From: Flavobacteriia bacterium
GTDB taxonomy: Bacteria; Bacteroidota; Bacteroidia; Flavobacteriales_D; Crocinitomicaceae
DNA: 64,000 nt
Direction: 5' to 3'
Assembly: GCA_947450325.1 (NCBI GenBank)
Contig: CANFUT010000004.1
Span: forward strand, 1 to 64,000
Positions 11,866-19,213 of the stretch are shown in pieces. Within the stretch, counting starts at the first letter, position 1. Every line of letters begins with the position of its first letter. The translations under genes were made by a program, and so were the position numbers. The notes beneath the pieces are model-generated. The model did no database searches and was not told the origin of the DNA. It was given only the letters and a program-made list of their open reading frames with translations.

Positions 11866-12351
11866 ATGCGAATCATAATCACAGGCTCAAATGGAGTTTT
11901 AGGTCAAAAATTGGTTAAATATTGTATCGCTAATCGATTGACTTTTATTGCAACTTCCAAAGGTTTGAATCGCAATCCAAATTGTCCTGATTATTTGTAT
12001 TTGTCGATGGATGTTTGCAACAAACTAGAAATCAATCAGGTTTTTGACACTTTGTATCCAACGCACATTTTGCATGCCGCAGCGATTTCAGATTTAGACT
12101 TTTGTGAAAAGCATCCTGATTTGTGTCATCAAGTGAATGTGGAAGGAACAGCGCTACTTTTCCATGCTTGTCAACAATTTGAGGCACATTTCAAAATGAT
12201 TTCTTGGGATTTGACCAAAAATTTAGATTCAGAATATTCCAAATCTAAAGTTGTTGCGCAAAAAAATCTTGAATCGAGTGATTACAAAAATTGGTCTCTC
12301 GCGAATCTAGAGCAAGATTCAGAAATTGAATTCTTGTTCAAATTTGACTAA
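11866..12351 (+). CDS. Truncated SDR / RmlD-like protein
   Basis: The 161-residue product starts with a Rossmann NAD(P) motif (ITGSNGVLGQKLV). It keeps the ILHAAAISDLDFCEKHPDLC segment with VNVEGT, and a possible catalytic YSKSK. RmlD-like reductases are usually about 280-300 residues. Here the STDxVFDG segment reads MISWDLTKN, the following loop is deleted, and the C-terminal substrate-binding half is missing. The stop overlaps the convergent porin gene by 4 bases. It is either a decaying gene or a minimal dinucleotide-binding protein; I favour decay. Confidence 0.65.
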   Translation: MRIIITGSNGVLGQKLVKYCIANRLTFIATSKGLNRNPNCPDYLYLSMDVCNKLEINQVFDTLYPTHILHAAAISDLDFCEKHPDLCHQVNVEGTALLFHACQQFEAHFKMISWDLTKNLDSEYSKSKVVAQKNLESSDYKNWSLANLEQDSEIEFLFKFD

Positions 12352-13457
12352 AACCAAACTGTTAAGTTGGCAATCAATAAATTACTTTCCTTTATTGGAT
12401 TTCCTGATCTACTTTGGTAAACCTTTTTTGGAGAAAAGAAAAACCTGTTTTCAAGTCTAAAAATCGCATTGTCTGAAATCTTGAGATTAAAACAGCCGCT
12501 AGTGCTAAATGATTCAAATCCTTTTGCATAAGTAATCGGTGCAATCTGAACGGATGAAGGATCTGTAAAGTACTCAGCTCTTGCAGAAATAGAAATTCTT
12601 TTGGTAATTTTATAATCCGCAACGACATTTGCTTGTCCCCAAAATAAGTGACTTTTTTGTCCGATAGAATCTACAATATCTTGTCTTCCAACGTAAACAC
12701 ATGAAGTCATCGACCATTTTTTCTTCTTCCAAATGATATACAAATCAGTAAAATACCTTGTTCTATAATTTGGCAAGTTTGCAGAATATTCATCACCAAC
12801 ATAAGTATCCCAATTGAAAAGGATATTTTTATTGGGGCGATATTCAATTTGTGTACCAATCGAAAGTGGGTTGTTATTGTCTTGGATTTGCTGCCAACCA
12901 TTGAGAATGTATAGATAACTACTCCATTTTTCATTAAATGGGACTGATAATTTTACGCCTGCAAGGTAATAAGGTACAAATTCTGGTGCAAATGAACGAG
13001 TGTACATCAAATGGTCTTTGGAAATGGCCGATTCGTTGGTATAAGGCGAGCTTAAAATTCCTGCATCTACCCAAATTTCTTTCTTTTTGGAAAGTTTTAC
13101 ACCGACATTTGCCTCTATTAGGTTTTTCAATGATCCTTTTTCAGAACTGTAATTGTCATTGATATATGTGCCGAAGCCAGGAACTAAATGGGCACGAACA
13201 TGGTTATTTTTATATTTTAAGTCAATGTAAGCCAAGTTGATATTGATTTCATTGTGCCTTGCAGAAGATACACAATATGGTCGAAGTGAGCCTTTTGGTT
13301 CATTGAAATCAAAACCATAATAGGTATCCACTAAACCACCTATGGACAATTTGCCAACCTGAACTGAGTCAAAGTTGTCTGTCACTCCAGTATTAATAAT
13401 TTGAGCTTCAGAAAGGAAAGGAATAAGTAGAAATAAGTATTTCCAAAGATTTTTCAT
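12348..13457 (-). CDS. BBP2-like outer-membrane beta-barrel porin
   Basis: The 369-residue protein has a signal peptide ending SEAQ, then GGLVDTYYGFDFNEP, typical of the OmpL-like beta-barrel porin-2 family. Further family-like segments are RHNEININLAYIDLKY, HLVPGFGTYINDNY and VDAGILSSPYTNESA. Repeated amphipathic strands end in a C-terminal LTVWF, with the terminal Phe expected for outer-membrane barrels. It probably forms a channel; the substrate is unknown. The 3' end abuts the truncated SDR gene. Confidence 0.78.
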   Translation of the reverse strand: MKNLWKYLFLLIPFLSEAQIINTGVTDNFDSVQVGKLSIGGLVDTYYGFDFNEPKGSLRPYCVSSARHNEININLAYIDLKYKNNHVRAHLVPGFGTYINDNYSSEKGSLKNLIEANVGVKLSKKKEIWVDAGILSSPYTNESAISKDHLMYTRSFAPEFVPYYLAGVKLSVPFNEKWSSYLYILNGWQQIQDNNNPLSIGTQIEYRPNKNILFNWDTYVGDEYSANLPNYRTRYFTDLYIIWKKKKWSMTSCVYVGRQDIVDSIGQKSHLFWGQANVVADYKITKRISISARAEYFTDPSSVQIAPITYAKGFESFSTSGCFNLKISDNAIFRLENRFFFSPKKVYQSRSGNPIKESNLLIANLTVWF

Positions 13458-13562
13458 AGATTCAACATTAACTGCGATTACGAAGGTGCTATTTTTAAAT
13501 CAATTTTGCTGTCTATTTCATGCAAAACTAATTTCCTTCATTAGCAATCAGTTAAGGGATAA

Positions 13563-13587
13563 TAATCTAAAACTCTTAAAATAAGAG
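13563..13587 (-). terminator. Weak possible terminator for the three-paralogue operon
   Basis: On the minus strand CTCTT-ATTTT-AAGAG (13573-13587) is followed by TTTTAGATT. The stem has only 5 bp and the T-run four bases, so this is tentative. It lies about 75 bases downstream of the last paralogue's stop. Confidence 0.3.
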
Positions 13588-13663
13588 ATTTGGATGTTTT
13601 TTTTGATTTTCAAGAAATTTTTTTAAACTATCTTCAAATTTAAAATTCCACAGCCCAGATTAA

Positions 13664-14686
13664 TTATTCCAAAATAAGACTGCCTCCCCATTCTATTACT
13701 GTAAAACCATTTCTTCTCAAAGGTTTCACATCAAGTGGCCTGTTGACAAATTGGTTTGAAATGATAGTTACTTCATTGAAAATCGCATAAACTCGTCTCA
13801 GATGATCTGGTTTTGGAGTGATTTCTAATTCACCAATTACCTTGCAATTTTCATCGATAAAAATCTGAACTTGAATAACCTTGAATTTTCGCAATTTTGG
13901 CGCCCAGTAAGTGATGAAATCTGTTCTTTCTCTTGCGTTTAATCCAAGATTTGAAAGATTTTTTTCCAAAAAAGGAATCAAATCATTTTGCGCTATAATT
14001 TCATTTGAATTTGATTTTTTGTCACGAAGCAAATATGCGTTTTGATTTGATTCCCAAAATAAGTAAGGATAAATTGAACCATTGGCAGCGGTTAAATTTC
14101 CGCTTTCATCCGCCTTCATTTTCCAAGTATTGTCAGGTGAAAGTTCCGGATAATTGAAGGTCATAATGCCTTGTGGATTAACTTTTAGCATAAAATCCAT
14201 CGGATTTTCACAGTAAGCATAAATGACAGGTTTATCGACCATGATGTTTCTTCCAGAATATTTTAAAGGAATGTAAACTGAAATGTCCATTTTGTGCTGA
14301 CTTGTAAATGCATGATTTTCAAAATAAATTTTTTCGTACAATGAATCTTTGTCTTGTTCTTTGCTGAAAAGCAAATATTTGGTTGATTCGTTCACCAAAA
14401 CTTCAAATTCGCCCAAAGCATTGGTTGAACCGATTTTTTTTCCATCCACATCATAAATGAATTGAACTAATTCCGAAGCTAGAATAAAATCTGTTGAATA
14501 TGGATCCATTTCAACTTCATAAAATACTTTTCCTTTGATCAAACATTTTCCTTTCGCAATCGTCAAATCTTCAACATCGGAGTTGACTATCACTTGTCTA
14601 AAAATCCTTGATTCCTTCATATCTCGTTCTTTTGCAAAAGAGGACCAAGCTATTAAAATGAAAATAAAACTAAAAATTGATTTCAT
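13664..14686 (-). CDS. Secreted KPVIYxY...WGG protein, paralogue 3
   Basis: The 340-residue protein starts at ATG 14686 (MKSIFSFIFILIAWSSFAKE, a signal peptide), 10 bases after the upstream paralogue. An N-terminal carboxypeptidase-regulatory-like domain (GKCLIKGKVFY ... GSTNALGEFEV) is followed by a conserved module: DKPVIYAYCEN, TFNYPELSPDNTW, YPYLFWES, RTDFITYWAPKL, ITPKPDHLRRVYAIF and PLRRNGFTVIEWGG. I know this C-terminal module as a widespread uncharacterised family. It is the most divergent of the three copies. Function unknown; periplasmic or surface location is inferred. Confidence 0.75.
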   Translation of the reverse strand: MKSIFSFIFILIAWSSFAKERDMKESRIFRQVIVNSDVEDLTIAKGKCLIKGKVFYEVEMDPYSTDFILASELVQFIYDVDGKKIGSTNALGEFEVLVNESTKYLLFSKEQDKDSLYEKIYFENHAFTSQHKMDISVYIPLKYSGRNIMVDKPVIYAYCENPMDFMLKVNPQGIMTFNYPELSPDNTWKMKADESGNLTAANGSIYPYLFWESNQNAYLLRDKKSNSNEIIAQNDLIPFLEKNLSNLGLNARERTDFITYWAPKLRKFKVIQVQIFIDENCKVIGELEITPKPDHLRRVYAIFNEVTIISNQFVNRPLDVKPLRRNGFTVIEWGGSLILE

Positions 14687-14696
14687 AATTTGAGAA

Positions 14697-15728
14697 TTAA
14701 TTGGTTTTTTCCGAGACATAATAATTAGATAAATCAATTTCTATTCCGCCCCAATCTACGAAGTAAAAACCATTTCTTTCCAATGGCTTCAATGGTTGTG
14801 GAACGACTTCAAACGGAAACTTAGGTTCTATGTTTCCAGCAAAAAGCATGTAAATTCTATTTAAGTGATTGGGGGTTGGATTGATTTTATAATTGGCAAA
14901 TTTGTCACATCGGCTATTTTGAACAAATTGAATCAAATAATAATTTTCCTTTTGCATCTGAGGCGCCCAGAAAGTGATAAAGTCAGTTTTTTCCTTGAAA
15001 TTGAATCCCAAAGCGGTCAATGTTGAGTCTAAATAGGAAACGATATTTGCTTTCGAAATGATTGATCCACAAATTTCATCTTTACTTTGTTTGATACTTG
15101 CCAATTCAAAGTTGATGTTTTTTTGTTTGCTTTCCCAAAACAAATAAGGATAATTTTGCTGTGAATTTTGGTCTGAAAGTACATTGTTTTCAAGTTTCAT
15201 TTGCCAAGTATGAGTGCTGTCTAAACTTGGATATGCAAACGTTAATTCCCCTTTTGAAATCAATTGAAAATCAAACTTTGTATTTTGATCTGAATAACAA
15301 TAAATAACTGGTTTTTTAACCATAAACTCAGTTTCTTGTTTGGTTTGGGTCATAAAAATTCTGAGTTTGATTCGGTGCTTATTTTTCAACGAATAATTTT
15401 CCAAGTAAGATGAATTATAATCCATCAGCACAAATTTCAAGACAGAATCTTTGAGTTGATTCGTCATTCTGAAATAACCTTTTGAATCACTGCGCGTCGT
15501 TTTTTCACCGGCACTTACAACGACATTGCTCAATTTATCTCTCATTTGATTGTCATTGTATTTGTAATCATAAATTGTTCCTTCAATCAAATATTTCCCA
15601 TTCGGGATTTTTGCGTCATATTTATCTGAAATAATTTCATAACTAAAATGATAGGGAATGTACTTTTCTGAAAAACAATTAATCGATTGAAAAACAACAA
15701 TAAATAAAGCGAGACTTTTCATGATCAT
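14697..15728 (-). CDS. Secreted KPVIYxY...WGG protein, paralogue 2
   Basis: The 343-residue protein has a signal peptide (MKSLALFIVVFQSINCFSEK) and the same layout as its neighbours: a regulatory-like beta domain (GKYLIEGTIYDY ... DSKGYFRMTN), then KKPVIYCYSDQ, TFAYPSLDSTHTWQMKLE, YPYLFWESKQ, KTDFITFWAPQM, INPTPNHLNRIYMLFAG and LKPLERNGFYFVDWGG. The start could be ATG 15728 or 15722. It directly follows paralogue 1 (stop at 15729), so the genes form one operon. Note a Cys at signal position 16; it is not a clear lipobox. Function unknown. Confidence 0.75.
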   Translation of the reverse strand: MIMKSLALFIVVFQSINCFSEKYIPYHFSYEIISDKYDAKIPNGKYLIEGTIYDYKYNDNQMRDKLSNVVVSAGEKTTRSDSKGYFRMTNQLKDSVLKFVLMDYNSSYLENYSLKNKHRIKLRIFMTQTKQETEFMVKKPVIYCYSDQNTKFDFQLISKGELTFAYPSLDSTHTWQMKLENNVLSDQNSQQNYPYLFWESKQKNINFELASIKQSKDEICGSIISKANIVSYLDSTLTALGFNFKEKTDFITFWAPQMQKENYYLIQFVQNSRCDKFANYKINPTPNHLNRIYMLFAGNIEPKFPFEVVPQPLKPLERNGFYFVDWGGIEIDLSNYYVSEKTN

Positions 15729-16730
15729 TTAGTTTACAGGTTCTGTTGAATTTTTCAATTGAATGCCGCCCCAATCGACCATGTAGAATCCATTTCGCTC
15801 CAAAGGTTTGAGTTTTTGTGGATTTGCAAAGTATGGAAATTCATTCGTTTCATTTTCCATAAAAAGCATGTAAAAACGGTTCAAATGATCTGGTTTAGGA
15901 GTAATTTCATAGTTGGCAAATTGTTCACATTCATTGTTTTGCAGGAATTGAATCATATAGAAGTTTGCGTTTTGCATTCTAGGTCCCCAATAAGTGATAA
16001 AATCAGTTTTTTCTTGTGAATTAAAACCTAAAACTGTCAAAGTAGAATCTAAAAAAGGAACAACTTGTGATTTTGAAACCATCGATGCATTGATTTCTAT
16101 TTTGTCTTGTTTGAAAATTTCTCCTTTAAAATAAACGTTTTCTTGCTGACTTTCCCAGAATAAATAAGGATATTTTTGCTTCGATTTGGCGTCTGTCATT
16201 TCATTGTTTTCCAAATTCATACTCCAAGATTGATTTGCATTTAATGCTGGGTATGCAAATGACAAGTTACCTTTTGTGTTTAGCTTCATTTCAAAAGATT
16301 GCGATTTATCTGAATAACAATAAATCACCGGTTTTTCGACCGCTGGTAAATCGTCGTTCATTGGATATTTTTCAATAAATATCTTCATCTTGATATGACG
16401 CTGACTTTGTATGGGATAATTTTCACAATAATAGGTCGGCAAGCTTTTTCTTTCGATTTGCAGATAGTTATCCTCGATTTTGCTTGTCATTTTAAACCAT
16501 CCTTTGGAATCTGTAAGGACTTTTTTTGTACTCGTTTTGACCACGATTCCACCTAATTTCGCATTACCTGGCATTTCATATACTGTCGCTTCAATGATGT
16601 ATTGACCTTTTGGAATTTTGGTGTTCTTTTCATTCGAAACGACTTTGAAACTAGCAGAGTAAGCTATTTTTTCTTTTCCAAAAACGGCGAAAACGAAACT
16701 AAAGAATATGATAGAGATTGCAATTTTCAT
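15729..16730 (-). CDS. Secreted KPVIYxY...WGG protein, paralogue 1
   Basis: This 333-residue protein is the first gene of the minus-strand triplet. A signal peptide (SFVFAVFGKE) precedes a regulatory-like beta domain (GQYIIEATVYEM ... DSKGWFKMTS, to about residue 115). The conserved module starts with EKPVIYCYSDK near residue 130, continues with LSFAYPALNANQSW, YPYLFWESQQ, TDFITYWGPRM, ITPKPDHLNRFYMLF and LERNGFYMVDWGG, and ends near 320. It is closer to paralogue 2 than to paralogue 3, implying two successive duplications. Function unknown. Confidence 0.75.
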   Translation of the reverse strand: MKIAISIIFFSFVFAVFGKEKIAYSASFKVVSNEKNTKIPKGQYIIEATVYEMPGNAKLGGIVVKTSTKKVLTDSKGWFKMTSKIEDNYLQIERKSLPTYYCENYPIQSQRHIKMKIFIEKYPMNDDLPAVEKPVIYCYSDKSQSFEMKLNTKGNLSFAYPALNANQSWSMNLENNEMTDAKSKQKYPYLFWESQQENVYFKGEIFKQDKIEINASMVSKSQVVPFLDSTLTVLGFNSQEKTDFITYWGPRMQNANFYMIQFLQNNECEQFANYEITPKPDHLNRFYMLFMENETNEFPYFANPQKLKPLERNGFYMVDWGGIQLKNSTEPVN

Positions 16731-16811
16731 GGTTTCAAGTTTTTATACATGATTATAAATTTACGCTTTTTATCGATACAATTAATCACAGAATTCGTTC
16801 AATTAGAAAGT

Positions 16812-16819
16812 TATTTTTG
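16812..16819 (+). promoter_or_regulatory. Possible -7 box for the HTH protein gene
   Basis: TATTTTTG fits TAnnTTTG and lies 47 bases before the ATG at 16867. No -33 TTG at the usual distance. Confidence 0.4.
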
Positions 16820-16866
16820 TTGGTTTAAATAGTACTTTTATCAATTCAATTCTCGGCGTATAAATT

Positions 16867-17877
16867 ATGAAGGAAAATATTCAAACGACCTTATTTCAGT
16901 TACTCAAGCAAAAAATGGCTGGCGATGATTCCTTGGGAAATGCCTTGTCTGATTTGTTAAGTATTTCTCCCGATGCAGTTTATCGCCGCTATCGAAATGA
17001 AACGCCACTCACTATTCAAGAATTGAAGAAAATTTGTAATCATTATTCGATTTCATTTGATGCTTTGTGCGAAATGGGAGAAGGGAAAGTGGTATTTTCT
17101 TATCCGCCACTAAATACGTTTGATTTCAGTTTAGAATCTTATTTGGAGGGAATTTTGCAAGCTTTTCAAAAGTTAAAGTCACTTTCAAGTCCTGAAATAA
17201 TATTGTCAGTAAATAATGTTCATTTGTTTCAATTGTTGAATTTTCCGCAATTGGTTCGTTTCAAATTGTATTTCTGGGCCAAAACGCATTTGCAAATCCC
17301 TGATTATAAAGACAAACCTTTTCGACATGAAAAGACGAGTGAAAATGCATTCGCATTAGGGAAAGAAATTTTGCAGATTTACAATTCTATTCCTTCCAAA
17401 GAGATTTATGACTTTGATTTCATGCGTGGATTCATGCGTCAAATTCAATATTACTATAAAGCACATCATTTCGAAGATCCAGAATATGCTTTATTTCTGT
17501 TTGATCGTATGTTGTTGATGTCAAATCATTTGAAAGAACAAGCCAACGTTGGCAAGAAATTCATGTTTGGAACCCAAGCGCCTGCTTCTGGAAATTCGTT
17601 TGAAATGTATTTGAATGAAACGATTAATTCTGACGTGACTTTCTATTACAAAAGCAAAGAACAACAAGGTTTGTATTTGACACACAACATTATGAATTAT
17701 CTAGAGACGACCAACCAAAGTTACGTTTCTGATTCAAGGTTGATTATCGATAAACAATTGGCAAGTTCTAGTTTAATTAGCATCGTGAACGAAAAAGAGC
17801 GCAATCATTTCTTTTATGAATTCGACCGAACAATTCATCTTTTCAGAAAGAAAATTGAAGCTGATTTAGAAAGTTAA
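16867..17877 (+). CDS. HTH-domain protein, possible transcription regulator
   Basis: The 336-residue protein carries an N-terminal XRE/BetR-like helix-turn-helix (about residues 10-70: LGNALSDLLSISPDAVYRRY, then TIQELKKICNHYSISFDAL). The all-helical remainder of about 260 residues shows no motif I can name. Similar HTH-plus-helical proteins occur in Bacteroidetes as predicted regulators without known targets. It is divergent from the three-paralogue operon, so regulation of that operon is an attractive guess from position only. Confidence 0.68.
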   Translation: MKENIQTTLFQLLKQKMAGDDSLGNALSDLLSISPDAVYRRYRNETPLTIQELKKICNHYSISFDALCEMGEGKVVFSYPPLNTFDFSLESYLEGILQAFQKLKSLSSPEIILSVNNVHLFQLLNFPQLVRFKLYFWAKTHLQIPDYKDKPFRHEKTSENAFALGKEILQIYNSIPSKEIYDFDFMRGFMRQIQYYYKAHHFEDPEYALFLFDRMLLMSNHLKEQANVGKKFMFGTQAPASGNSFEMYLNETINSDVTFYYKSKEQQGLYLTHNIMNYLETTNQSYVSDSRLIIDKQLASSSLISIVNEKERNHFFYEFDRTIHLFRKKIEADLES

Positions 17878-17986: not shown

Positions 17987-19213
17987 ATGAAAACAAAAAT
18001 CTTTTTTTCAGTATTAATTTGCTTTTCATTTTTAAAAGTGAACGGCCAAGAAAAAACAAATGAACCAACTACTTCAACAAATCTTCCAACACTTGCTGTT
18101 GCAAATCCTTATGTTAATGGATTGACTTTCAAAGCAGAAACTGTTTCCAAAATGATTCGTTTGGAATTAATCAAAATGAAAAAATACAAAGTGTACGATG
18201 TTTTCGACATGGCAGATGTATTGAAAGGAAATGCTGAATTTTTGAATGAATGTTATGGTCAAAACTGTTTGGTTAAAATGGGCAAAGAGTTGAATGTGGA
18301 TTATGTGATGTGCGGTAGTTTTGACGGTTTGGGAAACAAAATTGCCATCACGATCAAAATTGTCGATGTAAGAAATCACACCATTTTAAAATCTGCGGTA
18401 AAAGAATTTGACAACCAAGAGTTGGAATTGCAACGCATGATTGAAATTTTATTGAAAGAAATGCATGATATCGAGTTTTCAAAAGAAACGAGTGACCGCT
18501 TATCTTTTAAAAATGAACTCATCACTTCAAACAACATTGGTAAAATCAATAATTCTGGTCCGAGAATTGGGATGGCTTATTTATTGGGTTCTGTAAATGA
18601 ATTTGCCGTGCGACCAGAATCTCAAGGAGGATTGGGTATTTTTCCTGGTGTGAGTATGATTGGTTATCAGATGGAGAAACAATATGTTGGTACAGAGAAT
18701 TTCTCGTCACTTGTTGAATGTGTCGTCAATGTATCAGGATTAGAACAAGGACAATTTATTCCTTCTTTGACGTTAATGAATGGTTTTCGATTTGGAAAAT
18801 CAGGCTGGGAAATTGCCTTCGGTCCTGGATTTGGGATCAAACAAACTTCGAATGGATTTTTTGACAAAGACAATTTGTTCAGCGACAATCAACAATATTT
18901 TTCTGAAGATGATTGGGCAAAATATGCTGAAAGAAATTATTCTAATTTACCTGAATACAATACTACAGGAACATTTGTAGCGCCAACTCCAGACAAATTC
19001 AATCACACTTATAATTTCGACAAAAAGTTTGGGGACACGAGAGGAAAATATTCTATGAATACGATGTTTGTTTTCGGAGTAGGAAGAACTTTTAGAGCAG
19101 GTGCACTAAATATTCCAGTGAATGTTTTTTATTCATCGCAAAAAGGCGGCGGAATGACAGGTGTAAATGTTGGGTTCAATGTTCAAAAAAGAAAGAAGAG
19201 AATCAATGATTAA
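17987..19213 (+). CDS. Secreted CsgG/LpoB-like domain with C-terminal beta-barrel
   Basis: The 408-residue protein has a signal peptide (ending KVNGQEK). A domain at about residues 30-165 reads like CsgG/LpoB/TolB-N-type proteins: LELIKMKKYKVYDVFDMADV, CLVKMGKELNVDYVMCGSFD, IKIVDVRNHTILKSAVKEF. The C-terminal part (residues 190-408; NSGPRIGMAYLLG, GVSMIGYQMEKQY, FGPGFGI) has strand patterns of an outer-membrane barrel. The combination suggests an outer-membrane protein exposing a CsgG-like domain to the periplasm. Function unknown. A strong terminator follows. Confidence 0.65.
   Translation: MKTKIFFSVLICFSFLKVNGQEKTNEPTTSTNLPTLAVANPYVNGLTFKAETVSKMIRLELIKMKKYKVYDVFDMADVLKGNAEFLNECYGQNCLVKMGKELNVDYVMCGSFDGLGNKIAITIKIVDVRNHTILKSAVKEFDNQELELQRMIEILLKEMHDIEFSKETSDRLSFKNELITSNNIGKINNSGPRIGMAYLLGSVNEFAVRPESQGGLGIFPGVSMIGYQMEKQYVGTENFSSLVECVVNVSGLEQGQFIPSLTLMNGFRFGKSGWEIAFGPGFGIKQTSNGFFDKDNLFSDNQQYFSEDDWAKYAERNYSNLPEYNTTGTFVAPTPDKFNHTYNFDKKFGDTRGKYSMNTMFVFGVGRTFRAGALNIPVNVFYSSQKGGGMTGVNVGFNVQKRKKRIND

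Follow-up and report, generated by a model that had tools for sequence, protein, structure and literature searches.

Three adjoining minus-strand genes in the window (the whole 64,000-nucleotide stretch of DNA analysed here) encode proteins that share a C-terminal module of ~185 residues, which represents a highly conserved exported-type domain family outside the family libraries searched, with a confident structure model that lacks a credible counterpart in the PDB. We tentatively propose, at somewhat below even probability, that the module is an envelope head domain on exported proteins and that it binds a wall or extracellular glycan. In this proposal, one operon would give rise to three exported proteins, in each of which a rigid transthyretin-like spacer presents the C-terminal head, either within the periplasm or at the outer surface. 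This head would be a self-contained, beta-rich domain with a two-helix insert. Its ligand, a common polymer of the envelope or of the extracellular space and most plausibly a wall glycan or polysaccharide, would be bound at a putative site to which invariant Trp/Tyr, Glu, and Arg residues contribute.

Layout and age of the three gene copies

The three open reading frames, all on the minus strand, are present at the positions originally predicted. Copy 1 (15729..16730) encodes 333 amino acids, copy 2 (14697..15728) encodes 343, and copy 3 (13664..14686) encodes 340 when counted from the ATG at 14686, which is the likely start, rather than the listed TTG at 14737, judging from the signal peptide and from how copy 3 aligns with the other two copies. 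The genes are co-directional, separated by 0 bp (copies 1 and 2) and 10 bp (copies 2 and 3), and look like one operon; sigma-70-type promoters and terminators were no more frequent in a scan of 13400-17000 than in shuffled sequence. Judged by eye, a signal-peptide-like N-terminal stretch occurs in all three copies, as had been predicted (in copy 1 probably residues 1-18, 16677..16730, from reading the sequence), with no convincing lipobox in any of them. None of the three proteins matched any NCBIfam entry at E <= 1, and that library presumably includes the TIGR04183-like C-terminal sorting domain of Type IX secretion.

Likeness among the copies is far above chance, with copies 1 and 2 close (48% identity, E 5e-101) and copy 3 more divergent, as the original prediction stated (35% identity to copy 1, E 1.4e-46), and the same genome holds no further match at E <= 0.001. 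The proposed two-part plan is real: identity in the N-terminal part and in the module is 34% and 57% for copies 1 and 2, 26% and 37% for copies 1 and 3, and 20% and 36% for copies 2 and 3, so that paralogue divergence is larger in the N-terminal spacer than in the C-terminal head. The predicted motifs KPVIYxY and YPYLFWES are present in all three copies, and the other motifs vary slightly between copies (TDFITFW and NPTPNHLNR in copy 2; RNGFTVIEWGG in copy 3). In copy 1, residues ~35-123 (16362..16628, minus strand) have a transthyretin-like (TTR-like) fold, which backs the predicted carboxypeptidase-regulatory-like domain: VIA aligned them to a domain of human carboxypeptidase D (5aq0_B) at Z 9.6 over 80 residues with an rmsd of 2.3, to the SusC NTE domain 9hfj at Z 9.0, and to many other TTR-like structures at Z >= 6.6. 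Profile matches place the C-terminal module at residues ~130-327 of copy 1 (15750..16343, also covered by an AlphaFold model), at 14739..15320 in copy 2, and at 13679..14239 in copy 3, all on the minus strand; a genome search gave 14736-15323 and 13673-14242 for the latter two.

The search for relatives with two to four tandem copies, suggested with the original prediction, found arrays of 2-8 copies in 25 of the 32 related genomes that bear the module. Such arrays with divergent members, and the greater divergence of the window paralogues' N-terminal domains relative to their modules, could indicate antigenic or specificity variation, in which a local array diversifies into variant surface molecules. 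However, the copies are one-to-one orthologous in the congeners that have them and are older than the split of the sampled congeners, while orthologous copies in the genus are under purifying selection in both domains, with dN/dS of 0.07-0.20 in seven pairs (pairwise NG86 estimates without a site model, dS being near saturation in two of the N-part pairs). Diversifying selection among the genus orthologues is rejected on these ratios, the predicted selection for variants was not supported, and antigenic variation, largely refuted for the genus, is very improbable.

An HTH gene (16867-17877) adjoins the array within the genus only, so its position gives no support for a dedicated regulator. Among 59 genomes, counting the source genome itself, 25 have an HTH homologue and 13 of these 25 lack the module; in all nine non-genus genomes that carry both, the two lie on different contigs or hundreds of kb apart. 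Homologues are present in 12/16 module-bearing vs 13/43 module-free genomes (Fisher p 0.003, kinship ignored), and within the family in 11/13 vs 11/23 (p 0.04, kinship ignored). The link between gene and module is weak, and may act in trans given this enriched co-occurrence.

Family and fold searches with the C-terminal module

As expected of the unclassified second module described in the original prediction, the module stayed below the cutoff of every family in Pfam, NCBIfam, and PHROGs (best E 0.024 in PHROGs for the three window proteins) and had no sequence match in the PDB (best E 0.25 and 0.64 for two module profiles). Among 40 diverse members, Pfam and NCBIfam matches at E <= 0.1 were scattered, each family appearing in one or two members, the best being a sub-cutoff match to DUF2750 in two of the 40 (best E 0.0011). 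DUF7878 matched over the module in one of four ~500-residue relatives (E 3.5e-4, 21 bits, cutoff 25), and Cep192_D3 overlapped the module start in one protein, L063, below its cutoff (E 7e-4). Neither DUF7878 nor DUF2750 recurred in a scan of 80 members at E <= 0.01, in which CarboxypepD_reg families were found in 8 and 6 members and other families in one member each. Searches of full-text literature, mostly outside subscription journals, for the motif strings, novel secreted folds, and Crocinitomicaceae tandems found nothing on the module family.

The AlphaFold model of the copy 1 module is confident (pLDDT 93.9), and the structure searches for a well-characterised fold that had been proposed as a check found no credible counterpart among solved structures with either Foldseek (best E 0.23, probability 0.03) or VIA (best Z 3.5). 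Sliding clamps and hot-dog enzymes were rejected as the module fold, being PDB echoes of probability 0.01-0.10 only. The only consistent weak echo is the AP mu-homology domain, which accounts for seven of the nine VIA rows (Z 2.9-3.5) and is a lead at most. The module is a good candidate for an unstudied surface binding or enzyme domain because it has no match among the families and solved folds searched, recurs in distant bacteria, and carries invariant residues.

Distribution and architecture

Relatives of the module were found in 25 of 395 sampled Bacteroidota genomes and also among Bacillota, and a small number of bins with the labels Synergistaceae, Tenericutes, or candidate phyla have them too; fungi presumably also have sequences similar to it. 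A genome scan confirmed at least 570 relatives among the 590 pattern matches listed, some of which may share a gene. Two scans of viral contigs (24 and 1 pattern matches) confirmed no relative, and an origin in phage or mobile elements was set aside on this count. One 'phage' record, MT835506.1, was likewise rejected as a viral carrier, as its neighbours look bacterial and metabolic by eye and it is probably a bacterial contig. A conjugative R. albus plasmid carries one module copy, in a protein with BspA-type leucine-rich repeats and an SH3_3 match just below cutoff (26.5 vs 27 bits).

We analysed architecture in 87 proteins from 89 module matches, leaving out L085:1-300, which is truncated where its contig ends, and L119:4204-5157, a second tandem copy in a long frame that overlaps the first gene, and keeping four proteins with N termini cut by contig ends (L087, L099, L133, L134). 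The module ends within 15 residues of the C terminus in 83 of the 87 (84/88 if L119:4204-5157, with its 5-residue tail, is counted). In Bacillota the module is also found on its own: 17 of the 87 proteins have no more than 70 residues before it (e.g. L081, L091, L113, L131), and by eye 13 of these have lipoprotein-like and 2 membrane-anchor-like leaders. Partner domains are mostly of extracellular kinds: dockerin in 9 of the 87 proteins, SH3_3 in 5, SH3_4 in 1, a Cu-amine-oxidase-like N-domain in 2, and PdaC and DUF3298 in 1 each, and Ig-like partners and CarboxypepD_reg parts also occur. SH3_3 and SH3_4 are domains of the wall-binding type. An SH3_3-like stretch lies directly before the module in all six proteins where it was located (L090, L102, L117, L121, L135, L056), with only L117 and L135 above the Pfam cutoff.

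Bare lipoprotein forms, C-terminal placement, extracellular partners, and the SH3_3 position all argue for a glycan-binding head. Against it, no CBM family occurs among the Pfam matches of the three window proteins or of the 40 and 80 relatives, no conserved neighbourhood points to a glycan pathway, and the SH3b and dockerin partners come from Bacillota loci, with none in the Pfam scan of the window proteins. Clustering of neighbouring ORFs across 80 loci gave nothing module-specific; the largest cluster (17/80 loci) resembles, by eye, the common ABC ATPase superfamily, and the others, of at most 5 loci each, are mostly Flavobacterium synteny.

The strict C-terminal position, the tandem arrays, partners that include LRR, Ig-like, and dockerin domains, and the weak likeness to the peptide-binding AP mu-homology domain would also suit a domain for protein-protein contacts or assembly, as in a surface fibre, an adhesin head, or an inhibitor, whose conservation would then reflect a fold with an unusual core. 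We consider this improbable. Z values below 5 are uninformative, and one module across many phyla and partners favours a common ligand over a single protein partner.

Conserved residues and comparison with known systems

Eleven module positions are invariant in 130-131 non-redundant sequences, consistent with the predicted binding or catalytic site. Trp and Glu are among the near-invariant residues, as proposed, but at the proposed Asp position, column 115, Asp (60%) alternates with Glu (38%). The alignment shows the kind of conservation seen in a site, not in a loose spacer, which argues further for the glycan-binding head; the invariant residues would form a single site, although they may be purely structural.

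The same residues could instead serve catalysis if the module is an exported enzyme, such as a hydrolase of wall or extracellular glycans, with E112 and either E/D65 or E191 as putative acids and R157, R184, and K5 binding substrate. E112, R157, W41, and W120 are conserved in 131/131 and R184 and W192 in 130/130 readable non-redundant sequences, with K5 at 99%, E191 at 98%, and E/D65 at 99%, and one relative (L127) matches GH11 at 30.2 bits against a cutoff of 27 and, by eye, also has a dockerin-like stretch. However, the module matches no enzyme family at cutoff and no fold credibly, no His, Cys, or Ser stands in columns conserved at >= 80%, Glu and Asp swap freely at position 65, and copies 1 and 2 carry Asp at 191. 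An enzyme seems unlikely.

Set more broadly, the module may represent both a novel fold and a novel family of exported domains that bind a ligand or catalyse a reaction through one conserved Glu/Arg/Lys/Trp/Tyr site, a reading we regard as possible if doubtful. It would serve exported proteins as a universal C-terminal head, in Bacteroidota and Bacillota, in a few further phyla, and in one or more giant viruses, directed at a widespread envelope or extracellular polymer. A function, once found, would provide annotation at one stroke for rumen dockerin-bearing proteins, for exported proteins of Flavobacterium, and for a giant-virus protein. Screens for structure and ligands should be straightforward, since the module is small and exists in places as a bare lipoprotein of ~180 residues.

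Each known system resembles the window proteins in part. Copy 1 has the CarboxypepD_reg/transthyretin-like fold of PF13715, PF13620, and SusC NTE 9hfj in its N-terminal ~85 residues, but the copies score below the Pfam cutoff of 32.2 bits for PF13715 (copy 2, 19.9 bits; copy 1, 13.1 bits; copy 3, none) and the domain is joined here to an unrelated C-terminal module, rather than to a TonB receptor or peptidase. AP mu-homology domains (4ikn, 2pr9, 5awu) align with the module over 115-123 residues at an rmsd of 4.0-4.4; however, they belong to eukaryotic vesicle adaptors, are 2-9% identical to it, and give Z values far below a trustworthy level. The Terrestrivirus (Mimiviridae) protein A0A3G4ZNZ8, a predicted structure in BFVD, matches the module at E 3.9e-14, with 22% identity, an rmsd of 4.7, and a TM-score of 0.71 relative to the query, but it is an uncharacterised protein of 406 residues in which the module is recognised by predicted structure. 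Ruminococcus dockerin-bearing proteins (L090, L096:1937-4549, L102, L121) have the C-terminal module in common with the window proteins but carry N-terminal dockerin, SH3b-like, and other regions where the window proteins have a TTR-like domain; for this comparison we consulted a published account (PMC2930009), and we do not equate the module with the flavefaciens FD-1 dockerin proteins.

Two domains in three adjacent genes

Three adjacent ORFs on the minus strand, copy 1 (15729-16730), copy 2 (14697-15728) and copy 3 (13664-14737, with its true start most likely at ATG 14686), are separated by gaps of 0 bp and 10 bp, which suggests that they form one operon. Copy 1 shares 48% identity with copy 2 (E 5e-101) and 35% with copy 3 (E 1.4e-46), and a search of the genome itself found these three paralogues only. 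Each begins with a hydrophobic signal-type stretch, identified by eye. In every window pair the C-terminal module (57% identity for copies 1 and 2, 37% for 1 and 3, 36% for 2 and 3) is better kept than the N-terminal part (34%, 26% and 20%).

An AlphaFold model of copy 1 minus its signal, calculated from an alignment of 80 sequences, had a mean pLDDT of 89.2 and a pTM of 0.78. Its N-terminal domain resembles human carboxypeptidase D (VIA Z 9.6 over 80 residues, rmsd 2.3) and the N-terminal extension of SusC (Z 9.0), and by this modelled fold it is a transthyretin/carboxypeptidase-regulatory-like (TTR-like) domain; Pfam scores for this part lay under cutoff. Modelled alone, the module is predicted to be beta-rich and to carry a pair of helices (pLDDT 93.9, pTM 0.88). 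Both the tandem triplet of related genes and the two-part plan of the original prediction are thus borne out.

The module had also been called uncharacterised, and fold and profile searches retrieved no established fold or family for it. It fell below the cutoff of every Pfam and NCBIfam family, the strongest sub-cutoff matches being DUF7878 (in one relative) and DUF2750 (in 2/40), and PHROGs held nothing close. No PDB sequence matched at E <= 1 with a single query or below E 0.25 with two profiles. Foldseek against the PDB gave no credible match (top E 0.23, probability 0.03), and the top VIA score was only Z 3.5; AP mu-homology domains, which make up seven of the nine listed VIA entries (Z 2.9-3.5), are a weak lead. 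In a library of viral models, one protein, A0A3G4ZNZ8 from Terrestrivirus, a member of the Mimiviridae, is a good match to the module (E 3.9e-14, 22% identity, TM 0.71 when scored on the query), and the fold therefore seems to be present in a giant virus too. Among the families and solved folds covered by these searches none accommodates the module, which by itself is no proof that its fold is new.

Distribution and age of the array

With the window's own genome or the sample's centre genome included in each count, module relatives occur in 25 of 395 genomes sampled evenly across the phylum (24 with a profile in place of a single sequence), in 32 of 119 related genomes, and in 5 of 299 genomes sampled around a Clostridium genome. 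A pattern scan with one genome per species confirmed at least 570 stretches among the 590 matches listed. By record labels, the 80 loci kept from the matches listed comprise 13 from Bacteroidota, 64 from Bacillota or Tenericutes, two from candidate-phylum bins (Falkowbacteria and Saccharibacteria) and one from a Synergistaceae bin; because many loci are metagenome bins, the minor-phylum occurrences are provisional and need confirmation. Pattern scans confirmed no module relative on viral contigs. One public 'Bacteriophage sp.' record (MT835506.1, 380-8958) carries the module beside genes that by eye are decarboxylase- and biotin-carrier-like, and looks like a bacterial contig.

Tandem copies recur among the relatives: 25 of the 32 module-bearing related genomes contain an array of at least two copies spaced ~1 kb apart, in runs of up to eight, and contig ends truncate some of these arrays. 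In the tree, each window copy pairs with its counterpart in the congener G395. For copies 1 and 2 the pairing extends to the congener G398, whose third copy is a contig-end fragment absent from the tree. Supports are 99/95 and 100/98 for copies 1 and 2, and 98/74 for copy 3, which falls short of the star level used by the tool. The first two copies form a sister pair (100/99), whereas the closest partner of copy 3 in the tree is a lone gene from a different genus (100/99). From these groupings, the triplet predates the split of the sampled congeners. Two further congeners, G396 (73% complete) and G397 (99%), hold no module copy. Pairwise dN/dS of orthologues was 0.07-0.20 in both domains over seven pairs, and selection is therefore purifying. 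The proposal that local amplification reflects selection for variants is not supported by the orthologues in the genus, and the array is not a recent local amplification.

Neighbouring genes

No general neighbour gene was found around the 80 module loci. The HTH gene (16867-17877) adjoins the array within the genus only, being present in two of four congeners, the same two that have the array. In a wider sample a homologue occurs in 25 of 59 genomes, 13 of which are without the module, and in the nine genomes outside the genus that carry module and homologue together, the two are far apart or on separate contigs. Co-occurrence exceeds expectation in raw counts that ignore kinship and genome size, both overall (12/16 module-bearing genomes vs 13/43 others, Fisher p 0.003) and inside the family (11/13 vs 11/23, p 0.04). 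Adjoining the HTH gene is a 408-aa exported-type protein (17987-19213) with weak DUF3280/FlgO similarity, two homologues of which adjoin an array in another genus (L141:9180-11499).

In four same-family loci the first gene upstream of the array encodes a ~240-270-aa protein without the module; these are BLAST homologues (L139:9631-10347, L140:8734-9555, L145:6130-6855 and L153:1944-2660), and the one tested, from L139, has a sub-cutoff CarbopepD_reg_2 match. A BBP2-type porin gene (12348-13457, Pfam E 6.9e-68) lies immediately downstream of the window array. In G395 a 161/162-aa gene directly follows the array and the porin's relative (58%) is on another contig, which points to local insertion, loss or relocation of the porin gene. 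The short ORF at 11866-12351 (161 aa) appears by eye sugar-nucleotide reductase-like and truncated, yet its length is almost matched in G395 (162 aa).

Architecture, conservation and candidate function

Architecture was compared over 87 proteins from the 80 loci, with two further module hits left out. In 83 of them no more than 15 residues follow the module, and 17 have at most 70 residues ahead of it; by eye, 13 of these short proteins have lipoprotein-like leaders, two have membrane-anchor-like ones, one (L066) has no evident leader and one (L134) is truncated at a contig end. At E <= 0.001, Pfam assigned 21 partner families, including CarbopepD_reg_2 (9 proteins), dockerin (9), CarboxypepD_reg (7), SH3_3 (5), DUF3221 (3), the Cu-amine-oxidase N-domain (2) and SH3_4 (1), with Big_14, GH11, PdaC, DUF3298 and a TonB plug in one protein each. 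An SH3b-type stretch immediately precedes the module in L090, L102, L117, L121, L135 and a Ruminococcus albus plasmid protein (L056), among which only L117 and L135 pass the Pfam cutoff. One protein (L150) has two consecutive modules.

Dockerin proteins ending in the module occur at several Ruminococcus flavefaciens loci (L090, L096 and L102), and one genome (G515) contains six module matches, one of them partial; together they offer a ready test case for a possible cellulosome role. Proteins of ~470-510 aa ending in the module occur in several related genomes (L147:2439-3941, L148:2036-3556, L152:1718-3196 and L157:2477-3895); three cluster as a tree clade (G402x, G406x and G417x), and among the four Pfam matched only L147, with a sub-cutoff DUF7878 hit spanning the module.

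Conservation was measured on 193 modules plus the window copy, reduced to 131 at <80% identity, a set collected by profile and length filter and so biased toward conserved members. In the numbering of the modelled module, residues P6, Y9, P33, W41, L103, E112, W120 and R157 are invariant in all 131, and R184, W192 and G193 in all 130 readable sequences; K5 (99%), Y11 (99%), L62 (98%) and E191 (98%, although the first two copies of the window have D there) are nearly so. The predicted near-invariant Trp and Glu are therefore present. The predicted Asp holds as an acidic position, D or E at 115 (98%), as at E/D65 (99%). Columns conserved at >=80% contain no His, Cys or Ser. This pattern fits a candidate binding or catalytic site, and an enzymatic module is a close rival reading that we consider somewhat doubtful.

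Our preferred reading, itself tentative, is that the TTR-like domain would act as a spacer carrying the exported module as a head domain, which may bind a polymer of the envelope or extracellular space. Such a polymer would probably be a glycan, given the SH3b, dockerin, GH11 and PdaC partners and the invariant aromatic and charged residues. That the head instead engages other proteins is also a close rival, and rather unlikely. The module family is real, well defined, old, widespread, uncharacterised and of exported type, and we found no description of it in the open-access literature; the exported spacer-plus-head plan is that of an already known kind of protein.
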